From a virus, in IMG/VR virus record IMGVR_UViG_3300042305_002097, positions 1 through 26,487 of that record: a stretch of DNA of 26,487 nucleotides; one strand, written 5' to 3'. The position numbers and the translations under genes are program-made. The notes beneath the pieces were generated by a model, which ran no database searches, had not been told where the DNA came from, and saw only the letters and a list, made by a program, of their open reading frames with translations. The stretch's first letter is position 1; the number at the start of each line of letters is the position of its first letter. Shown here piece by piece: positions 5,145 through 21,658 of the stretch.

Positions 5145-6999
5145 TGGGTGGTTCCTCCATTGGCGGCGCTTCTGGCGCCGGTGCTCCTGCGGGCGGCTGC
5201 TGCGCGGCGGCCTGAGCGGCTTGCTGCTCGGCCTGCATCTGCGCGATGAGCGCCTCGATCTTGTTCAAGTACTCGTTGAGCTCCGCGACGCGGTCCTCGG
5301 GGACGCCATCGACGCGGGCCTTGTTGTAGTGGCGGCGCGCGCGGTCGTACGCGACGTCGAGCAGCAGGCGCTTGTCGGGGTCCGGGTACGGCTCGCCGCG
5401 GAGGATGAGCGCGCAGGTCTTGTCGACGATGTCGATGTCCGACGTCTCCATGTCGCGCGTGGCGACGATGTCGCCGAGGTCGAGCAAGTGCGCGATCTCG
5501 CGGCGGTCGACGAAGATCTTCCGGTCCACGAGCTCCATGACTTCCTGGAACTTCGCGGCCTTCGACTGGGAGAGCGAGGAGATAGGCTCACAGCGTAGCG
5601 TGTACTCGCGGCGGTCCATCTGGACGTCGGCCCAGTTGATCCGCTCGAGCGCGCCCTGACCTGGAGCCAGGATCTCCACCTGCTCGCCAGCCTCGGACGC
5701 CTCTTCGCAGGCATCGACGATGAGCCAGCCGATGTCGACGTGGAACTGGCGCACAGCCTCGTGCGCGACGCGGAACCGCGCGTCTTCCATGTCGTCGTAG
5801 ACGTTGAGGGCACGACCCGACGCCTGCCGCAGGCCCGCCGGGAGGACGCTCTGGGCCGCGAGCTCGCTGATGCCCTGATAGCGCAGCATGTTCTGCGCGA
5901 TCATGTCCTTGTACGCGTACGTGTCCGGGTGGACCGGCTGCGGGTTGAAGACGTCTGGCTTCTGCCCGTTGTACTCGATGATGGTGCCGACATCGTTGTC
6001 GATCTTCGACTTCCCGAGGGTGCCGGCCTGCACCATGATGTGGCTGCCGCCCATGAGCTCGTGGGCGACCTGGATCTTGGACGACAGACGGTCGTACTCG
6101 TCCTGCGCGGCCGCAAGGTCGAGCGCCATCGACGGACCGTAGAAGCCCGAGAGCACCGCGTTGAGGCGGAGGAAGGCGAACCCGAAGTTCGTGTTGCGGG
6201 ACCACGGCGTCGAAACGAGCGTACCCGTCGAGAGCGCGATGGCGCGAAGTCCGTCCGTGGCCTTGGGGCCCGACGCAAGGTGCGTGGCCTCGTAGACCAG
6301 GATCTGGTCCGAGTACCGTCCGCTGTTCATGTACGTCGAGTCGTCGTCCGCGGGCTTCGGCGCATCGAAGATGGCCTTGCGGCGGTCAGCCTGCGAACCG
6401 TAGAGTCCGGGGCCATCTTCGCCACCGAACGCCTCGAGGACCACAGAGCGGTCCATGTAACAGCGGTGGTAGAGGCAGCGCGGCGTGCCGTACCGAGACT
6501 CGGCCTCGGAGACCAGCAGGTCGAAGATCGGGACGCGTTCAATCTGCACCGAGCCGTCCTGGATGTACACCTTCACGCACGCCGTGCCGAAGACGAGGAC
6601 GTCGAGCAGGAGCTGCGGGTAAATCTTGGCGTAGCTCGCGGCGTAGAAGGCGCCGTGCAGGAAGCGGTCAAGGCGCTGCGCGCGGTACCGCTGGAGAAAG
6701 TCGCCGCCAACCGTCAGCGAACTCGGCAGAGGCATCTGCCGCGCAAGTTTCGCCTGCATCGTGTTGATGGCATTGGCCGCGACATTGAACGACACCCGGT
6801 CGTCCCACGCGTTCTTGATCGGCATGCCGAACATGCGGAGATCGGTGCCGTAGACCTCGGCAGCGCGGCTCCACATGCCGCGACGGGTGGCCGCCTCGTT
6901 GCGGATTGAGGTCACAGCGGAGACGACTGCGTCCGCGGGGTCTTCCTCCCGCTCGTGAACGAGCCACCACGCGTCGGTCGTCTCCATGATACCCGGCAT
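5137..6999 (-). CDS. Portal protein
   Basis: The 620-residue protein follows the large terminase and precedes the scaffold. It contains the portal pattern of podoviruses: WDDRVSFNVAANAINTMQAKLARQMP, a QRYRAQRLDRFLHGAFYAA helix, DVLVFGTACVKVYI, a PIFDLLVSEAE strand, and LRQASGRALNVYDDMEDARF in the stem/crown region. The last 40 residues are Gln/Ala/Pro-rich and likely flexible. Portals form the dodecameric ring at one capsid vertex through which DNA is packaged and to which the adaptor binds. Neither ATG 6999 nor ATG 6987 has an obvious ribosome site, so the start may be four codons later. Confidence 0.92.
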   Translation of the reverse strand: MPGIMETTDAWWLVHEREEDPADAVVSAVTSIRNEAATRRGMWSRAAEVYGTDLRMFGMPIKNAWDDRVSFNVAANAINTMQAKLARQMPLPSSLTVGGDFLQRYRAQRLDRFLHGAFYAASYAKIYPQLLLDVLVFGTACVKVYIQDGSVQIERVPIFDLLVSEAESRYGTPRCLYHRCYMDRSVVLEAFGGEDGPGLYGSQADRRKAIFDAPKPADDDSTYMNSGRYSDQILVYEATHLASGPKATDGLRAIALSTGTLVSTPWSRNTNFGFAFLRLNAVLSGFYGPSMALDLAAAQDEYDRLSSKIQVAHELMGGSHIMVQAGTLGKSKIDNDVGTIIEYNGQKPDVFNPQPVHPDTYAYKDMIAQNMLRYQGISELAAQSVLPAGLRQASGRALNVYDDMEDARFRVAHEAVRQFHVDIGWLIVDACEEASEAGEQVEILAPGQGALERINWADVQMDRREYTLRCEPISSLSQSKAAKFQEVMELVDRKIFVDRREIAHLLDLGDIVATRDMETSDIDIVDKTCALILRGEPYPDPDKRLLLDVAYDRARRHYNKARVDGVPEDRVAELNEYLNKIEALIAQMQAEQQAAQAAAQQPPAGAPAPEAPPMEEPPNV

Positions 7000-9467: not shown

Positions 9468-9724
9468 GGCTCCCCCTCGCACGCTTCCGCGAGCTGCCGC
9501 AGGTCCGTGCGCATGTCCGCCGCGAGCGCACGCAAGAGCTGCTGCGCGTGCTCGTAGGGCAGGTAAAAGGACGCGGCATCCTTGTTGTCGAGCGTGACGA
9601 CGACAAGGAATGACAGCCGGTCGCGGCGGTCCGAGTGCCCCGCGTCAAACTCAATGCGCACCGATGTCGCCTCGCCTGTGCAATCGTTGTCGCCGATCAC
9701 TGGGAGTTGGTTGAAGTAGCCCAT
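9464..9724 (-). CDS. Hypothetical small alpha/beta protein
   Basis: ATG 9724 overlaps the upstream TAA (TAATG) and has a GGAGGACAAG ribosome site, which lies inside the end of the upstream gene. The 86-residue product appears to have a beta-sheet half (VRIEFDAGHSDRRDRLSFLVVVTLDNKDAASFYLP in parts) and then a helix (YEHAQQLLRALAADMRTDLRQLAEACEG). It has no Cys pair, signal or catalytic motif that I can recognise. It is flanked by two genes that share a helical motif. A regulatory or inhibitor role is possible but nothing in the sequence shows it. Confidence 0.7.
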   Translation of the reverse strand: MGYFNQLPVIGDNDCTGEATSVRIEFDAGHSDRRDRLSFLVVVTLDNKDAASFYLPYEHAQQLLRALAADMRTDLRQLAEACEGEP

Positions 9725-11812: not shown

Positions 11813-11836
11813 TGAGTGTTTCACGTGAAACGCTCA
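11813..11836. promoter_or_regulatory. parS-like: parS-like centromere site
   Basis: Positions 11817-11832 read TGTTTCACGTGAAACG. The bacterial chromosomal parS consensus is TGTTTCACGTGAAACA, so 15 of 16 bases match. Bases 11818-11831 are a perfect 14-base palindrome, and a TGAG/CTCA pair outside one mismatched position extends the dyad to 24 bases. ParB-type CTPases load on this sequence. No ParA or ParB gene is present in the window. The site lies in non-coding DNA between the two divergent operons. Confidence 0.75.
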
Positions 11837-14217: not shown

Positions 14218-14409
14218 ATGCCATTCGCAGACCTTGTCGCCATCGCCGAAGAGAAAGCCCGCCAGGTCGACCTGGCGGAGGACCTTGGACTGTCACGCGC
14301 GGTCACCCGCGCCGCGCGGCTCGAGTACCGCGCCGCGCTCGCGAAGCTCCGCGCGCACCCGGACTACCACACTCGCGCAGGTGTGCGCGTCGGGTGTGAC
14401 TGGGTGTAG
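14218..14409 (+). CDS. Small helical hypothetical protein
   Basis: ATG 14218 is directly preceded by GGAGGAACC, the strongest ribosome-site type in this genome, which decides the start. The 63-residue product is a charged, Ala/Arg-rich helix (ADLVAIAEEKARQVDLAEDL) with a second helix (RAARLEYRAALAKLRAHPDY). No family is recognised. Confidence 0.6.
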   Translation: MPFADLVAIAEEKARQVDLAEDLGLSRAVTRAARLEYRAALAKLRAHPDYHTRAGVRVGCDWV

Positions 14410-15123: not shown

Positions 15124-15377
15124 CCGCCAAACTCACCCACGCCGACGTCGCCGCCGAGCTCGTCGCCACGTACGCCCGCCTGCGCGGGCTCTCCTCACTG
15201 CTCGACCTCAGCGTGGCGCGCGAGTCCGCGACCGCCGCCATGATCGAGACCGCCGCGAGCACCGCCCTCGGCGCCGCGTTCCGGCTCGACTCGGAAGCCG
15301 CCGAATCCGCCGCGCGCTCGCCCCGTTGCGACATCGCCGCGCAGCAGCTCGCCTGCCACGGGCTGGTGCAACCGTGA
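15120..15377 (+). CDS. Small helical hypothetical protein
   Basis: ATG 15120 has GGAGGAACC upstream and overlaps the preceding stop. The 85-residue product is Ala-rich and mostly helical (THADVAAELVATYARLRGLS, MIETAASTALGAAFRLDSEA). No recognised motif is present. The next gene begins at an overlapping GTG (GTGA). Confidence 0.6.
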   Translation: MTAKLTHADVAAELVATYARLRGLSSLLDLSVARESATAAMIETAASTALGAAFRLDSEAAESAARSPRCDIAAQQLACHGLVQP

Positions 15378-15715
15378 GCCGCGTTGCAGAATCCCGTCAA
15401 CCGTGGGAGCCTGCCACGCTCCCTGACTGGCTCGACTGCGAGCGCGACCGCGTGTGCCAGCTCCTGGGCGAGCGCGTCGCGGAATCCGGGGGTAAGCTCG
15501 ACGCCCGTGCCGAGCACCTCGTGCGCGTGGCGCAGGCGCTCGACTTCGTGACGTGCGCCCCGCTCGGGCACCGCGTCACCGTCCGCGCCATCGGCATTGC
15601 CCTGCGCGCACGCGTCGCGGAGCTCGAGGAGGCCGGCTCTTCGCCCGAGCTGACCGAGGCGCGCGAATTCCTGGGGCACGTCGAGCGCATCCTTGACTGG
15701 ACGCAGAACGGATGA
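15374..15715 (+). CDS. Helical hypothetical protein
   Basis: GTG 15374 overlaps the preceding TGA. The 113-residue product starts SRVAESRQPWEPATLPDWLD and continues as three helical segments (DRVCQLLGERVAES, EHLVRVAQALDFV, AIGIALRARVAELEEAG). It ends in a probable fourth helix. No enzymatic motif is seen. Its start and stop are both coupled to neighbours, so it is co-translated with the recombination block. Confidence 0.6.
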   Translation: MSRVAESRQPWEPATLPDWLDCERDRVCQLLGERVAESGGKLDARAEHLVRVAQALDFVTCAPLGHRVTVRAIGIALRARVAELEEAGSSPELTEAREFLGHVERILDWTQNG

Positions 15716-16104
15716 CGCCCAGGTTCCTTCCGCCTAAGCCCATCAGCGAGTCGACGCTCCGCGAGGTCGACGCGCGCTTGGACCGGCGCATCCGTGAACT
15801 TGAGGCGCAGGTGCATCGGCTCGCCGAACAGGTCGCCGCCCTGCACCTCGGGTCCACCTGCCACCCTGACTGGGTGAATCCCGGAAAGGGTAGCGTCGCC
15901 GCCGCGCGCCGCGCCTCGGTCGTCGAGGCGGTGCTCGCAGCCGCCGGACCCCGGGGCATGAACCTGCCCGAGCTGTCCGCCTACCTTCACATTCCCATGG
16001 GTCGGCGCGACACGGTGTTTGCCGACCTCTCGTACCTCATCGCAGAAGAACGCGCCGAGCGCGTGCCCACCCGCGCCAAGCGTTGGCGCATCAAGGAGAA
16101 ATGA
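15712..16104 (+). CDS. Coiled-coil protein with a possible winged-helix end
   Basis: ATG 15712 overlaps the preceding TGA. Residues 14-47 form a coiled coil (STLREVDARLDRRIRELEAQ and onward). Residues 60-130 look like a winged helix: ASVVEAVLAAAGPRGMNLPE, SAYLHIPMGRRDTVFADLSY, then a basic RVPTRAKRWRIKEK wing. This layout suggests a dimeric DNA-binding protein just ahead of the recombination genes. It is a prediction from pattern only. Confidence 0.6.
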   Translation: MTPRFLPPKPISESTLREVDARLDRRIRELEAQVHRLAEQVAALHLGSTCHPDWVNPGKGSVAAARRASVVEAVLAAAGPRGMNLPELSAYLHIPMGRRDTVFADLSYLIAEERAERVPTRAKRWRIKEK

Positions 16105-16106
16105 CC

Positions 16107-16814
16107 ATGGCCAAGACCAAGACCGCCCCCACCGTGACGACCATCGACCCGCAGCACCCGAACCTCGCCCTGTGGGAGAGCGTCCAAGCGACGGACCCGG
16201 ACTACACCAAGTCGTTCTCCCGCTCCGGCGGATTCCGGGGCACCGCGATCAACCACACCTACCAACAGAAGAGGGCCACCCAGGCCTTCGGCCCGAAGGG
16301 CCTGGGCTGGGGCTCGCGCGTCATCGAGGAGCGGTACGCCGAGGGCGCACCGATCTTGCACAAGGACAACGTGATCGGCCGAGAGATCGTCCACGTTCTC
16401 CGCATCGAACTCTGGTACGTGCGCGAGGGCCAGCGCGGCAGCGTCGAGGCCTTCGGTCAAACGCAGTTCGTCGGCAGCAACAAGCACGGGGTCTACACGG
16501 ATGAGGAGGCTCCGAAGAAGAGCCTCACGGACGCGGAGAGCAAGGCGCTCGCGTCGCTCGGATTCTCGGCGGACGTTCACCTCGGGCTGTTCGACGACTC
16601 GAAGTACGTCAACGACCTATCCGCCCGCGTTGCCGAGGCGGAGAAGCCCAAGGGGCCGAGCCTCGCCGAGCTGACTGCCAAGGTCGACGCGGCGTCGAAC
16701 CTCGACGAGCTCAAGGCTGCCGTCGCCCAGGCTGCCGCCCTCAACGACGCGGACCGCACGACCCTGCGCGCCAGCTACACCGCACGCAAGGCGGCGCTCG
16801 AGGCTGCGTCGTGA
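16107..16814 (+). CDS. Putative single-strand annealing/recombination protein
   Basis: ATG 16107 is preferred to ATG 16101 because AAGGAG then sits eight bases upstream. The 235-residue product has a segment order seen in a phage protein family placed with Rad52/Sak-type annealing proteins: GGFRGTAINHTYQQKRATQA, FGPKGLGWG, a HVLRIELWYVREG strand, FGQTQFVG, then KKSLTDAESKALASLGFSAD and HLGLFDDSKYV. The C-terminal 70 residues form a separate Ala-rich helical tail. The next gene is a Cas4-like nuclease, and annealing protein plus exonuclease is the standard phage recombination pair. The family call is moderate; an unrelated DNA-binding function is possible. Confidence 0.6.
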   Translation: MAKTKTAPTVTTIDPQHPNLALWESVQATDPDYTKSFSRSGGFRGTAINHTYQQKRATQAFGPKGLGWGSRVIEERYAEGAPILHKDNVIGREIVHVLRIELWYVREGQRGSVEAFGQTQFVGSNKHGVYTDEEAPKKSLTDAESKALASLGFSADVHLGLFDDSKYVNDLSARVAEAEKPKGPSLAELTAKVDAASNLDELKAAVAQAAALNDADRTTLRASYTARKAALEAAS

Positions 16815-17566
16815 AGCTCCCGATCCTCTCCGCCTCCTCGACCCGGCGGTGGCTCGCATGCGCTCTTAGCGCCCAGTTGCCCCAGGACGAGGGGGAGAAG
16901 CATCCGAGCGCAGCAGTGGGCACCCGGTTCCACGAGCTCGTGGAAGGGGCCATAACGGCCCGGCAATGGCCAACCATCGACCCGCTCGAGGAGCACATGG
17001 CGCCCGCCCTCCGTGCGACGCTCGACTGGTTCGCCACCGTGACCCCGTCCGGGAGCGAGACCATCCTGGCGGAGCAGGCCTACGACCTCGCGCCCCTCGG
17101 AACGTACGTCAAGGGGGAGCGGCGCGAGCCAACGTGGCGAGACTCCATGGTCTGCGAGCGCCTGCCTCGTGGCGGGCACCGCAATTATCCCGGGGCGCGA
17201 AGCCACATCTACGGCACGGCCGACGTCGTCATCCTCGACAAGGGTCACGCCCACGTCATCGACTGGAAGACGGGTCGCGCGAGCGATGACCACGAGCCGC
17301 AGCTCAAGACGCTCGCGCTCATGGTCGCCGAGGCCGAGCACGTGCAGCACGTCACCGCGTCCGCGGTCTACGTGAACCTGCAGACGGCCAAGGTAAAGGC
17401 ACAGACCTGGGTCTTCGACTCGTTCGACCTGCACCTGCACGCGGGAGCCATCACAGGCCTCGCGCGCACGCTGCTCGACAAGCGCACCGCAGACCCGACG
17501 CCCGGCAAGTACTGTTTCTTCTGCCCCGCTGTCGGGTGCCCTGAAAAACTCCGGGGCTCACGATGA
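16811..17566 (+). CDS. PD-(D/E)XK nuclease, Cas4/AddB-like, with Fe-S cysteines
   Basis: GTG 16811 overlaps the preceding TGA. The 251-residue product has the fold's motifs: GTRFHELVE (H41), E88, GTADVVIL (D138), VIDWKTG (D151, K153) and Q164. Four cysteines (C17, C235, C238, C243) have the Cas4/AddB layout of one N-terminal and three C-terminal residues, which bind a 4Fe-4S cluster. It should be a DNA exonuclease that makes single-stranded tails for the preceding annealing protein. The stop overlaps the next ATG (ATGA). Confidence 0.85.
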   Translation: MKLPILSASSTRRWLACALSAQLPQDEGEKHPSAAVGTRFHELVEGAITARQWPTIDPLEEHMAPALRATLDWFATVTPSGSETILAEQAYDLAPLGTYVKGERREPTWRDSMVCERLPRGGHRNYPGARSHIYGTADVVILDKGHAHVIDWKTGRASDDHEPQLKTLALMVAEAEHVQHVTASAVYVNLQTAKVKAQTWVFDSFDLHLHAGAITGLARTLLDKRTADPTPGKYCFFCPAVGCPEKLRGSR

Positions 17567-18078
17567 CCACCACCTTCCGCGGCATCGCCCACACCGCCGA
17601 CGGACAACCTTTCATCCTCACCGAAGAACACGAGAAGAACATGAACGACGACACCCTCCGCCGCATCGAGCAGAAGCTCGACGAACTCCTGAAGATTGCC
17701 AAGGCCACGCCCACGGCGACGGTCGACTACAAGAAGAAGACGGTCGACGACGCAGACCTCGACGGCAAGTACGGCAACCCCGAGGTCCGCATGATCCCGA
17801 GCAAGTGGCACGGCCAGGACTTCAAGGGCTGGAAGTACAGCGACTGCCCGCCCGAGTTCCTCGACGAGCTGTCCGGCATGCTCGACGCCATCAGCCGCAA
17901 GCAGGCGGGCGATCCCGCCAAGGCAAAGTACGCCGACTGGTCGGCGAAGGACGCCGCCCGCGCTCGAGCCTGGGCCGAGCGTCACCGCGCGAAGGGCACC
18001 GGACCCGTGCTCGTGCCGCCCCCGGCGGTGGACTGGGACGGCCCCGGCGACACCATGAGCGACGACATTCCATTCTGA
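17563..18078 (+). CDS. Protein with SSB-type C-terminal acidic tip
   Basis: ATG 17563 overlaps the nuclease stop; ATG 17641 is an alternative start. The 171-residue product contains DADLDGKYGNPEVRMIPSKW, FKGWKYSDCPPEFLDELSGM, a helical middle, a Pro-rich linker (VLVPPPAVDWDGPG) and the end SDDIPF. The last five residues, DDIPF, match the tip by which SSB proteins recruit repair and replication partners. No OB fold is evident. It could be a functional SSB analogue or an SSB-partner decoy of the recombination module. Confidence 0.7.
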   Translation: MTTTFRGIAHTADGQPFILTEEHEKNMNDDTLRRIEQKLDELLKIAKATPTATVDYKKKTVDDADLDGKYGNPEVRMIPSKWHGQDFKGWKYSDCPPEFLDELSGMLDAISRKQAGDPAKAKYADWSAKDAARARAWAERHRAKGTGPVLVPPPAVDWDGPGDTMSDDIPF

Positions 18079-18096
18079 ACCAAGGAGACCAAGACC

Positions 18097-18279
18097 ATGC
18101 GCACCCTCATCGCCCTCGCCATCGTTATCCTGTCCGCGAGCTCGGCCCCTGCCGCTGAGCCGCAGGCCTCCCGCTGCCTCGCCTACCCGCCCTTCTGCCC
18201 GTACGGGCAGGCGCCCCTGTGCGTGTGCGAGAACGACCTCTCGTACAACTGCATCTGGATGTGCGCCTCGACGCGCTGA
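18097..18279 (+). CDS. Secreted six-cysteine peptide
   Basis: ATG 18097 has AAGGAG about ten bases upstream. The 60-residue product starts with a signal peptide (MRTLIALAIVILSASSAPAA, cleavage likely after residue 20). The mature part, about 40 residues, has six cysteines (27, 34, 42, 44, 52, 56), an even number suited to three disulfides in the periplasm. The CPYGQAPLCVC stretch resembles small exported proteins of some high-GC bacteria. A strong hairpin follows, so the gene can form a unit of its own. It may be a host-derived moron gene; the target is unknown. Confidence 0.7.
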   Translation: MRTLIALAIVILSASSAPAAEPQASRCLAYPPFCPYGQAPLCVCENDLSYNCIWMCASTR

Positions 18280-18287
18280 CCAGAACG

Positions 18288-18328
18288 AAGCGCCGGGCCC
18301 CGCACACGTCATACGGGGTCCGGCGTTT
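18288..18328 (+). terminator. Rho-independent-like terminator
   Basis: CGCCGGGCCCCG (18291-18302) pairs with CGGGGTCCGGCG (18314-18325) through 12 pairs with one G-U, leaving an 11-base loop. The stem is followed by TTTC, a short T-tract. It lies nine bases after the stop of the cysteine-rich peptide gene, in a 79-base gap. The short T-run makes it a moderate rather than a strong terminator. Confidence 0.6.
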
Positions 18329-18358
18329 CAACCCATGACCATCACAGGAGATACCAGT

Positions 18359-18655
18359 ATGCCCGCGCACCCCGTCCAAATCCACATTCTCCTCACACAC
18401 GACTCCGGCCGCACCGCCGAGCGCACCTACCTCCGCGACGAGGACGGCTGGGCGCTGCTCACCCGCATGCTCGACAGCGACGGCAACGCGCACGAGGAGG
18501 TCGAGCACCAACTTGAGTTCACCAACGAGGCGCTCTTCGACGCGCTGCAGGCGGTGCATGCAGCCTTCGGGACCATGGTCGTGAGCGGCGACGCCCCGCT
18601 GCCCTCGCTCGTGCCGGTCGACACCCGGCCCCAAGATCCTGGGGTGATGAACTGA
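18359..18655 (+). CDS. Small hypothetical protein
   Basis: ATG 18359 has AGGAG eight to nine bases upstream and is preferred to ATG 18335, which has none. The 98-residue product has a beta strand start (PVQIHILLTHDSGRTAERTY) and a helical middle (DGWALLTRMLDSDG, NEALFDALQAVHAAFG). It ends in a Pro-rich tail. No motif is recognised. The 145 bases after it (18656-18800) hold no supported gene; the only structure there is a small hairpin GTGGA-CTTC-TCCAC at 18751-18764. Confidence 0.6.
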   Translation: MPAHPVQIHILLTHDSGRTAERTYLRDEDGWALLTRMLDSDGNAHEEVEHQLEFTNEALFDALQAVHAAFGTMVVSGDAPLPSLVPVDTRPQDPGVMN

Positions 18656-18800
18656 TTGCGCACCGCGTCCACCCGTGGCACAAAGAACTTGCCCCCGGAA
18701 CTTTGGCGAGTCCCGAGGGCGACAACCAGAACGGCAAGAAGCAGGATAGCGTGGACTTCTCCACCTGTCGAGTGCCTTGCCGCATTCCACGGAGAAGACC

Positions 18801-19022
18801 ATGAGGAAGGCCGTGTTCATCCCGATGTGGGACACGTCACTCGACCCAAAGACGCCGTCGCACGAGCTACGTGTCGAGCTCCACCACGACCACGTATCGC
18901 TGACCATCGGCCACGCCGCTGAGGGTGCTTCGTCGCAGTACAAGTGCCGCATGGCTCCTGCATATGTCCTCGACGTGGCGCGGTTCATGTGGTCCTGCGC
19001 CAAGACACTTGGAGCACTGTGA
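18801..19022 (+). CDS. Small hypothetical protein before the replication genes
   Basis: ATG 18801 follows CGGAGA at six bases. The 73-residue product starts RKAVFIPMWDTS and has a beta-rich middle (HELRVELHHDHVSLTIGHA) and a helix with two cysteines in the second half. The stop overlaps the start of the replication initiator (TGATG), which suggests joint expression. The function is unknown. Confidence 0.6.
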   Translation: MRKAVFIPMWDTSLDPKTPSHELRVELHHDHVSLTIGHAAEGASSQYKCRMAPAYVLDVARFMWSCAKTLGAL

Positions 19023-19714
19023 TGGCCAAGTACGCACAGCTGCACACCGACGATGGGCTCGCCGTCCTGAAGGCTGGCCTGACGAAGGAGTACGTCCTCG
19101 CCCTGACGTTCATCGCCCAGCACGAGGACGTATCCATCCCGGTCCGAGAGTTCGAAAAGGCGATCAAAAAGCTGGCCGAAATCGGTGTCGAACTGAGCCT
19201 CCAGCGAGCCATCGGGAAGACTCTGTCCGACAACGCTCGCTCGAAGCGATACTACGAGAAAACACAGGCGAAGCTGAAAGAGTCTCACGTGAGAACTGAC
19301 GTCAGTCATGACGTCGTACCTCACACGAATCTCTTACCTAGCCCTATCCCTAATCCTTCTCCTGCGGAGAAGGATATTGCGCGCAAGACGCGCAAGCCAA
19401 GGGCCGTCGCCACCTTCGACTCATGGATGCCGAAGGACGACCACATCGCCATCGCCAAGGAGCGCAACCTGAACCTCGCCGCCGAGCACATCGCCATGCG
19501 CGACTGGCTCGCGTCCACCGGCCGGACGTACAAGGACTACGACGCCTTCGCTCGCAACTGGCTACGCCGCGCGACGCCGCAGCGCTCCACACCGATCAAC
19601 ACCGGCAACTATCTGCGGCAGCCGCACCCTCGTGAGATCCCCACCGATCCCGAAGCAGCCAGGGTCTACTGGCTGGGAGAACAGAAAGATGAGCCACGAT
19701 TCGATTTCGGATGA
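19022..19714 (+). CDS. Replication initiator-like protein (phage O-type)
   Basis: ATG 19022 overlaps the upstream TGA and has GGAG eight bases before it. The 230-residue product has an N-terminal helical region (LAVLKAGLTKEYVLALTFIA, REFEKAIKKLAEIGVELSLQ), a variable linker at about residues 88-135 and a C-terminal domain with FDSWMPKDDHIAIAKERNLN, HIAMRDWLASTGRTYKDYDA, FARNWLRRA. That last set is typical of phage replication proteins encoded before a DnaC-like loader. It would bind the origin and recruit the loader. The linker DNA contains palindromes, as lambda O contains its origin. The family level is inferred. Confidence 0.7.
   Translation: MAKYAQLHTDDGLAVLKAGLTKEYVLALTFIAQHEDVSIPVREFEKAIKKLAEIGVELSLQRAIGKTLSDNARSKRYYEKTQAKLKESHVRTDVSHDVVPHTNLLPSPIPNPSPAEKDIARKTRKPRAVATFDSWMPKDDHIAIAKERNLNLAAEHIAMRDWLASTGRTYKDYDAFARNWLRRATPQRSTPINTGNYLRQPHPREIPTDPEAARVYWLGEQKDEPRFDFG
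19283..19375. other. Candidate replication origin inside the initiator gene
   Basis: Two perfect 12-base palindromes abut: TCTCACGTGAGA (19283-19294) and ACTGACGTCAGT (19295-19306). A second TGACGTC follows at 19309. Then comes a pyrimidine-rich stretch with CCTA recurring at a six-base period (ACCTAG CCCTAT CCCTAA, near 19337-19354). A hairpin with ten-base perfect arms and a three-base loop ends it (ATCCTTCTCC/GGAGAAGGAT, 19353-19375). The segment is less GC-rich than its surroundings and encodes the variable linker of the initiator. Confidence 0.45.
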
Positions 19715-20375
19715 CCCGCTCGCGACCATGATCGCCGCGACCATGCAGGCCTCGCTCGCCGCCATGCAGCAGCCCCCTGCGCAGCCGGCCCCGCCTCCGC
19801 CCGTCACGCTCGACGGCCTGCTCGAGAGCCAGGGCGCCAAGTACCTGCCCGAGCGGTACCGCCCCATCGTCTCGTCGGTGCTGGCCAAGGGCGTGCCCGC
19901 CTCGATGCTGCCGCTCATCGAGCATCTGCTCGTCCGCGACGGGCGCACCCCGTTCGTCGTGCTCATCGGCCCGACCGGCGCCGGCAAGACCACGCTCGCG
20001 CTGACCCTGCCGCTGGCCATGGCGCTGCACCTCGGCGAGCGCCGCTTCGAGCGCCCGATGTTCGTCCACGCCGACGACGTGTGCGCAGCCCGCCGCTTCG
20101 CCAAGCTCGGCGACGAGCCCGAGCTCCTGAGCAAGGCGCGCACGAAGCGCCTCGTGATCCTCGACGACGTCATCGGCCAGAAGGACGAGGCCGGTGATCT
20201 CTACCGCGTCATCCGCCACCGCGAGGAGAACGCCCTGTCGACGATCATTACGGCCGGCTTTGGTCGCGCCGATGCTGCCACCTCGTACGGCGAGCAGTTC
20301 GCCCGGCGGATGTTTGCCGGCATCTCCCACATCGTAGCCCCAAAAGGTGTCGAGCCCACCCGCGGCGGCAGGTGA
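19689..20375 (+). CDS. DnaC/IstB-like helicase-loader ATPase
   Basis: ATG 19689 lies within the end of the initiator gene (26-base overlap). The 228-residue product has a Pro/Ala-rich N-terminus (about 1-40) and an AAA+ core: Walker A GPTGAGKTT (94-102), Walker B LVILDD (155-160), sensor-1-like STIITAGFG (184-192) and an arginine region (QFARRMFAGISHI, 203-215). Loaders of this kind place the replicative helicase on origin DNA together with an initiator. No helicase gene is in the window, so the host DnaB is probably used. The possible confusion is with an IstB transposase helper, but no IS element is present. Confidence 0.85.
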   Translation: MSHDSISDDPLATMIAATMQASLAAMQQPPAQPAPPPPVTLDGLLESQGAKYLPERYRPIVSSVLAKGVPASMLPLIEHLLVRDGRTPFVVLIGPTGAGKTTLALTLPLAMALHLGERRFERPMFVHADDVCAARRFAKLGDEPELLSKARTKRLVILDDVIGQKDEAGDLYRVIRHREENALSTIITAGFGRADAATSYGEQFARRMFAGISHIVAPKGVEPTRGGR

Positions 20376-20444: not shown

Positions 20445-20792
20445 ATGAGCGCACTCAAGAAAGCCATCAGTCTGAAGAAGGTCCACAAGAACCCCAAGGG
20501 CGGCCTATCCGAGGCTGGCCGCAAGGCGTACAACCGGTCGACCGGGTCGAACCTCCAGCCGGGGGTCCGAGGCGCCGCCAACACCCCCGAGAAGATGCGC
20601 CGGAAAGGGTCCTTCCTGGCCCGCATGTTCTCGAACCCGACCGGAGGGGCGGTGAAGGACGGAAAGCCCACCAGGAGGGCGCTGAGCGCCGCTGCGTGGG
20701 GTGAGCCCGTGCCGAAGACGACGAGCGCCATGGCCGCCCTTGCCGCCAAGGGTCGGCGGATGCTCGAGAAGTACAAGGCGATGAAGAAATGA
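20445..20792 (+). CDS. Basic conserved phage protein (DUF6321-like)
   Basis: ATG 20445 follows GAGGA at about six bases; ATG 20427 in the same frame is the alternative. The 115-residue product is very basic. Its segments GGLSEAGRKAYNRSTGSNLQPG, TPEKMRRKGSFLARMFSNPTG and KPTRRALSAAAWGEPVPKT (each split here) match a phage family I recall as DUF6321. The stop overlaps the start of the PAPS-reductase-like gene (ATGA), suggesting a shared job. A ribosome-site-like GGAGGAACC at 20400 has no start codon at the right distance. Confidence 0.7.
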   Translation: MSALKKAISLKKVHKNPKGGLSEAGRKAYNRSTGSNLQPGVRGAANTPEKMRRKGSFLARMFSNPTGGAVKDGKPTRRALSAAAWGEPVPKTTSAMAALAAKGRRMLEKYKAMKK

Positions 20793-21658
20793 CCTGGCAG
20801 GAAAAGCTCGCGGGGAGGCGCGTCATCGCCAGCGTAAGCGGCGGGAAGGACTCGGCTGCGCTCAGCCTCTGGCTCAAGGAGCAGGGCATCGAGCACGAGC
20901 GCGTCTTCCTCGACACCGGGTGGGAGCACCCCGACACCTACGAATACCTGCGCGGCGACCTCGAGCGCGCGCTCGGGCCCATCACCTGGGTCACGCCACC
21001 GCGCCAGATGGAGGAGCTCGTGCTGCACAAGGGCATGTTTCCCTCGAGGATGCAGCGTTTCTGCACGCAGCTCCTCAAGGTCAAGCCGATGGCCAAGCAC
21101 ATCTCCGCCTACCAAGACCAGCACGGCGAGGTCGTCAACGCCGTCGGCGTCCGGGCTGCGGAGAGCGAGGCCCGCTCGAAGCTCCCCGAGTGGGAGTGGC
21201 AGGACGGGTTCGACTGCGAGGTGTGGCGCCCGCTGCTTCGGTGGAGCGAGCAGGACGTCATCGACATGCACACCCGCCACGGGCTCAGGCCCAACCCGCT
21301 CTACCTCAAGGGCGCGACCCGCGTGGGCTGCTGGCCCTGCGTGTACGCGAAGAAGGACGAGCTTCGCCTCATGCAGCAGATCGACCCGACCCGCGTCGAC
21401 AAGCTGCGGGAGCTCGAGGGTCTCGTGACGCTTAAGGCCAAGGCTCGCGCCGAGGCCAAGGGCGAGACGCTCAAGAACAACCCCGGATGGTTCCAGGCCA
21501 AGACCGGGTACGGGCGCGAGTGCTGGCCCATCGACGACGTGATGAAGTGGTCGCTCACAAGCCACGGCGGCAAGCAGTACGAGCTCTTCAGCGCCGAGCC
21601 TCACGAGCAGGGGTGCGTGCGCTGGGGGCTTTGCAACACGGAGGAACCAAATGGCTAG
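20789..21658 (+). CDS. PAPS reductase-like PP-loop enzyme
   Basis: The 289-residue product has a PP-loop SGGKDS (17-22), FLDTGWEHP, RFCTQLLKVKP (R90, C92), GVRAAES (120-126) and two later cysteine pairs (C181/C184, C276/C282). These are hallmarks of the phosphoadenosine phosphosulfate reductase/ATP-pyrophosphatase superfamily found in many phages. Possible roles are sulfur transfer, DNA or RNA modification or nucleotide activation. The true substrate is not known, and the name should not be taken as proof of sulfate reduction. The gene is coupled to the DUF6321-like gene before it and overlaps the next by eight bases. Confidence 0.85.
   Translation: MTWQEKLAGRRVIASVSGGKDSAALSLWLKEQGIEHERVFLDTGWEHPDTYEYLRGDLERALGPITWVTPPRQMEELVLHKGMFPSRMQRFCTQLLKVKPMAKHISAYQDQHGEVVNAVGVRAAESEARSKLPEWEWQDGFDCEVWRPLLRWSEQDVIDMHTRHGLRPNPLYLKGATRVGCWPCVYAKKDELRLMQQIDPTRVDKLRELEGLVTLKAKARAEAKGETLKNNPGWFQAKTGYGRECWPIDDVMKWSLTSHGGKQYELFSAEPHEQGCVRWGLCNTEEPNG

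Follow-up and report, generated by a model that had tools for sequence, protein, structure and literature searches.

Introduction

In phage lambda, the replication origin lies within gene O, between its N- and C-terminal parts, and carries tandem inverted-repeat iterons (PMC6022878; PMC7466680). Gene 18 of P22 and of phage L encodes distantly related initiators, each with distinct in-gene iterons, which in phage L take the form of six imprecise 11-bp repeats (PMC8022706). Within the initiator gene 38 of SPP1, oriL combines direct repeats with an AT-rich unwinding element, with gp39 as the helicase loader and gp40 as the helicase (PMC6316719).

We analysed a phage fragment of 26,487 bp, the complete IMG/VR record IMGVR_UViG_3300042305_002097, hereafter the window. 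From its sequence and that of related phages, we put the probability that positions 19283–19375 form the core of a phage replication origin within the initiator gene at roughly 80%. The layout is already known from lambda, P22, phage L, and SPP1, and by its architecture the predicted origin would be of the lambda-O type. As in lambda, tandem iterons lie inside the gene between the two protein domains, and a loader gene comes next (P after O in lambda); the low-GC tract that follows the iterons in lambda is clear in most relatives but weak in the window. Lambda, however, has four 18-bp iterons spaced 20–24 bp apart, whereas the units here are 12 bp long (10 bp in relatives) and abut; the loader is DnaC/IstB-like where lambda has P, and the N-terminal domain matches no recognized family. 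The 11-bp repeats of phage L are near in size to these units, but their sequences differ, and the phage L repeat reads TGTCCAACGGA in print, which is no palindrome. SPP1 shares the pairing of an in-gene origin with a helicase loader (gp39). It also has oriR, a second origin, whereas the window, a fragment, showed no second array. What appears to be new are the iterons themselves, together with a predicted all-helical N-terminal domain that has no match in the families or folds searched.

Results

The predicted initiator gene (19022–19714, + strand) encodes 230 amino acids with weak matches to phrog_1032 and phrog_1408, and divides into an N-terminal domain (approximately residues 1–87), a linker (approximately 88–130), and a C-terminal domain (approximately 131–230). 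Adjacent to it on the same strand, positions 19689–20375 encode a DnaC/IstB-like ATPase and predicted helicase loader (IstB, 1e-06; phrog_50, a DnaC-like helicase loader family, 1.8e-10). The genes 5′ of the initiator include a PHROG exonuclease/RAD52-like gene, a PD-(D/E)XK nuclease, and a conserved early gene of no confident family (17563–18078, + strand), which served as an anchor for finding relatives. These matches mark the genes around the initiator as a module for phage replication and recombination. The replication block also holds a phosphoadenosine phosphosulfate reductase family gene (20789–21658; PF01507, 9.6e-28; phrog_424, 5.8e-58).

The C-terminal part of the initiator is 36% identical over 99 amino acids to mycobacteriophage replication initiation proteins such as Jung gp63 (tblastn, 3e-4), and matches phrog_1032 with E values of 0.0016 (window) and 7.5e-5 (related locus L014). 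These matches, weak but consistent, suggest a C-terminal part common to annotated replication initiators. The mycobacteriophage initiators have linker repeats too (a 25-bp pair, and three copies of ACCATTACCAAC), but these are unrelated to the repeats of the window, and their N-terminal domains have no match to the window domain.

The proposed origin-binding domain is the N-terminal one (19022–19282, + strand), which has no match in Pfam or PHROG; a PDB sequence search likewise gave no match. On sequence and structural modelling, this domain places the initiator outside the O family. Among the loci compared, only the window and L035 carry this domain (N-type 1, defined by these two sequences), and seven others carry a second type (N-type 2). 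The full-length structure model is poor (pLDDT 56), with the linker at low confidence. The N-type 2 domain of L032 yields a confident, all-helical four-helix model (pLDDT 82), for which no similar fold turned up in either PDB or BFVD. A profile comparison of the two types is weak (probability 16%, P 0.0016); we consider them likely to be homologous, which would make the window domain remote kin of the all-helical domain of the seven loci, and homology of the window domain to the L032 four-helix model itself is only suggestive.

The linker begins with the features that drew the initial annotation to this region, namely two abutting perfect 12-bp palindromes, CCTA repeats with a period of 6 bp, and a hairpin with 10-bp arms, all of which are present. 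Both palindromes are real, TCTCACGTGAGA at 19283–19294 and ACTGACGTCAGT at 19295–19306. What had been missed is that they are units 1 and 2 of a four-unit array with a 12-bp period, continued in register by the imperfect unit CATGACGTCGTA (19307–19318) and by CCTCACACGAAT (19319–19330), which is degenerate and the weakest of the four. The functional unit is probably the 12-bp iteron array (four units in the window, five in L035) and not the two palindromes. A pyrimidine-rich tract follows (19331–19358), in which CCTA starts at 19337, 19343, and 19349; it is a possible, weak unwinding element. The hairpin, ATCCTTCTCC-TGC-GGAGAAGGAT (19353–19375), has 10-bp arms around a 3-nt loop, and no other hairpin in the window combines perfect arms of at least 9 bp with a loop of 3–8 nt; its arms were matched by none of 200 synonymous-codon shuffles of the initiator gene.

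Single palindromes mean little here, because the window contains 18 of at least 12 bp where about 11 are expected. The expected number of abutting 12-bp pairs in the window, where the earlier estimate was a chance of about 0.002, computes to 0.0016 with equal bases and to 0.0046 with the real base composition. Since the top periodic stretch of the window gene lies elsewhere, at residue 180, and not in the array, we adopted palindromicity in register as the statistic. Over three units in a 10–13-bp register, the array scores 14 of 15 pairs, which is the maximum of the window (the runner-up reaches 12 of 15) and is reached in 2 of 400 synonymous-codon shuffles of the gene. All statistics from the window alone are post hoc, the feature having been picked first, so the comparison across phages is the independent evidence and the real test.

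Further initiators were collected from scans with the N-terminal domain of L002 (contig IMGVR_UViG_3300010354_000887), the loader, an initiator alignment, and the conserved upstream gene. In all nine initiator genes, a tandem array opens at codons 84–90, straight after the N-terminal domain. The units are 12 bp long and TSACGTSA-like in the window, and 12 bp long and TCTGATATCAGA-like in L035, whose five units are TCTGATATCAGA, CCTGATGTCAGC, ACTGATATCAGA, TCTGACGTGAGA, and TCTGATGCAGCT. L002, L011, L014, L015, L032, and L033 have 10-bp, TCACGTGA-like units, and L018 has 10-bp units of the form ACCACGTGGT/ACCACCGGGT. The period follows the N-terminal domain: it is 12 bp with the window type, in the window (C-type 1) and L035 (C-type 2), and 10 bp with the L002 type, in L002, L011, L014, L015, and L018 (C-type 1) and in L032 and L033 (C-type 2). 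Each N-terminal type is found with each of two unrelated C-terminal types, and therefore the array goes with the N-terminal and not the C-terminal domain. This co-variation is the strongest argument that the N-terminal domain would be the part that reads the array.

Other scans returned no relatives: pattern scans of 84,980 bacterial and archaeal genomes with the initiator protein and a five-sequence alignment found none, the window N-terminal domain alone had no match among viral contigs, and the loader alignment gave no confirmed relatives. L040–L048, found via the upstream gene, had no match to the initiator profile; one of them, L044, carries a long run of 24-bp, CGCGACGAGGGAC-like repeats at 5952–6280, not matched to an initiator. 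More distant initiators with other N-terminal domains have linker repeats of their own (L003:2762–2996, L005, L009, L020, L024, L025, and L026), exemplified by GGGGACAGCGGC in L024, GGGGTGCAGC in L026, GGGGTAAAGACGTG in L009, and CTCGCGAG in L005, which suggests that in-gene origins may be common.

Unit 1 and the core of parS have TCACGTGA in common, and a perfect parS-like GTTTCACGTGAAAC occurs elsewhere in the window (11818–11831), as might be expected if the array were a parS-like centromere for host ParB. The array units, however, lack the 14-bp GTTTCACGTGAAAC, for which the site at 11818 is the only match in the window, and we rejected a parS identity for the array. The units diverge freely from parS (TAACGTTA, TGATATCA, CCACCGGG), the array type tracks the phage N-terminal domain, and no ParB_N gene was found in the six phage records searched; a centromere is accordingly an extremely improbable explanation. 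The site at 11818–11831 is itself non-coding, between two gene blocks, with single perfect copies in the L002 and L011 contigs. Phages with such a lone site may use host ParB, or the site could be a repressor operator.

The DNA repeats could in principle be a by-product of a repetitive, disordered protein linker, with four-residue repeats such as SHVR/TDVS/HDVV, and R-D-V-T repeats in L002; the low confidence of the modelled linker fits this. Synonymous shuffles, however, seldom recreate either the palindromes of the window (2 of 400) or the periodicity of six relatives. In L014, L015, L018, L032, and L033, the top periodic stretch is the array or the tract just 3′ of it, and its periodicity was reached in none of 300 shuffles for each gene; for L035, it was reached in 1 of 300. 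The excess is weaker in L002 and L011 (6 and 14 of 300) because their peptides repeat too, and their four-unit palindromes in register were recreated in none of 400 shuffles.

Synonymous conservation points the same way. We compared degenerate codons encoding the same amino acid in the array and following tract with those in the rest of the gene. Between L002 and L011, 49 of 53 such codons are unchanged in the array and tract, and 79 of 144 elsewhere (Fisher p 2e-7), although this conservation could in part reflect recent transfer of the segment; between L032 and L033, the counts are 59 of 60 and 150 of 180 (p 0.0014). Moreover, the peptides vary from one phage to another, whereas the DNA core remains similar, and the 10-bp period is out of codon frame. 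An origin of the repeats in the protein linker is on these grounds highly unlikely, and the constraint appears to act on the DNA.

L035 has a 6-bp-period tract, TTAGCATTAGCATTAACC, where the window has the CCTA tract, and keeps the inner 8 bp of the hairpin. The initial annotation had counted both the CCTA repeat and the hairpin as parts of the candidate origin; both elements exist, and comparative support for these putative roles comes from L035 only. In seven of nine genes, the 40-mer of lowest GC is found at the array or immediately 3′ of it, and here the low-GC tract is clear; in lambda O, the same test finds a strongly AT-rich 40-mer (GC 0.20) immediately 3′ of the annotated iterons. In contrast, the tract is weak in L035 (GC 0.50) and in the window, where its GC is just modestly reduced (0.53 vs 0.65 overall) and the GC minimum of the gene lies elsewhere. 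The window 50-mer at 19307–19356, with a GC of 0.50, falls at about the 2nd percentile of the window. Cumulative GC skew, which had been proposed as a check, has no turning point at 19.3 kb; in the block of rightward genes, the skew passes from clearly negative values to almost zero at about 20–20.5 kb, a change confounded by gene orientation.

The sister phage L002 is 88.9% identical to the window over 15359–18803 and 92.2% identical over 19387–20335. Between these homologous flanks lies a cassette (18804–19386, + strand) comprising a short ORF, the N-terminal domain, the iterons, and the hairpin, which measures 583 bp in the window and 386 bp in L002 and is without nucleotide similarity between the two. 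The replacement linker of L002 carries 10-bp units, the cores of which are TCACGTGA and TAACGTTA. From this alignment, the N-terminal domain and its array are swapped together as one cassette within DNA that is otherwise 89–92% identical.

Such an exchange raises the question of whether the region serves mainly as a joint at which phages recombine to swap N-terminal domains, its conservation reflecting recent exchange. On the hairpin side, the window and L035 share a 48-bp block of 94% identity, beyond which the C-terminal domains are unrelated, and one edge of the cassette falls at 19386/19387. A joint would nevertheless give no reason to expect palindromes in tandem at a constant position, nor the match between array and N-terminal domain, and as the main role of the region it has a very slim chance. 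The 48-bp hairpin segment may additionally serve as a joint next to the candidate origin.

Discussion

The initial annotation had likened the region to the lambda O origin within the initiator linker, and this is the best-supported reading: eight related genes carry arrays at the same codons, array type follows the N-terminal domain, the two are exchanged together, and synonymous sites are conserved in two close pairs. In the mechanism we propose, the initiator N-terminal domain would bind the palindromic 12-bp iterons of its own gene, probably as dimers, and bound initiators would line up next to one another, at intervals of about one helical turn, in a nucleoprotein array. The strand-biased, low-GC tract beside the array would then open together with the hairpin, and the C-terminal domain and adjacent DnaC-like ATPase would bring the DnaB helicase of the host to each of the two strands.

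Binding by the N-terminal domain could also serve regulation. Plasmid iterons often act in both replication and autoregulation, and an autorepressor would likewise show tandem palindromic sites with a cognate binding domain, so the array might be an operator through which the N-terminal domain controls how the replication genes are transcribed or translated, while replication starts elsewhere. We regard this as unlikely, as the array lies 260 bp into the coding sequence, at the linker position occupied by the origins of lambda, P22, phage L, and SPP1, a low-GC tract lies 3′ of it in most relatives, and a helicase loader is encoded next door.

Beyond the origin itself, we tentatively suggest an all-helical domain, new to description, that recognizes origins by reading abutting short palindromes about one DNA turn apart (12 or 10 bp, depending on the subtype), with domain and sites forming one swappable cassette, such that each exchange would change origin specificity. 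The nine loci, with two domain types, offer a natural experiment in which a proposed binding domain and its sites are fused in an exchangeable segment, and they give the uncultured phages of this group a testable candidate origin. They also suggest a cheap approach to finding origins, namely searching the linkers of initiator genes for repeats constrained at synonymous sites.

Three further features of the window lie outside the initiator gene. ARAGORN calls a tRNA-Lys (ctt) at 9548–9641 on the + strand, amid − strand genes; the call could be genuine or spurious. A 20-bp perfect palindrome is located at 14259–14278. A perfect 18-bp palindrome, TTCCACGAGCTCGTGGAA, lies at 16928–16945 within the PD-(D/E)XK nuclease gene and is identical in L002.
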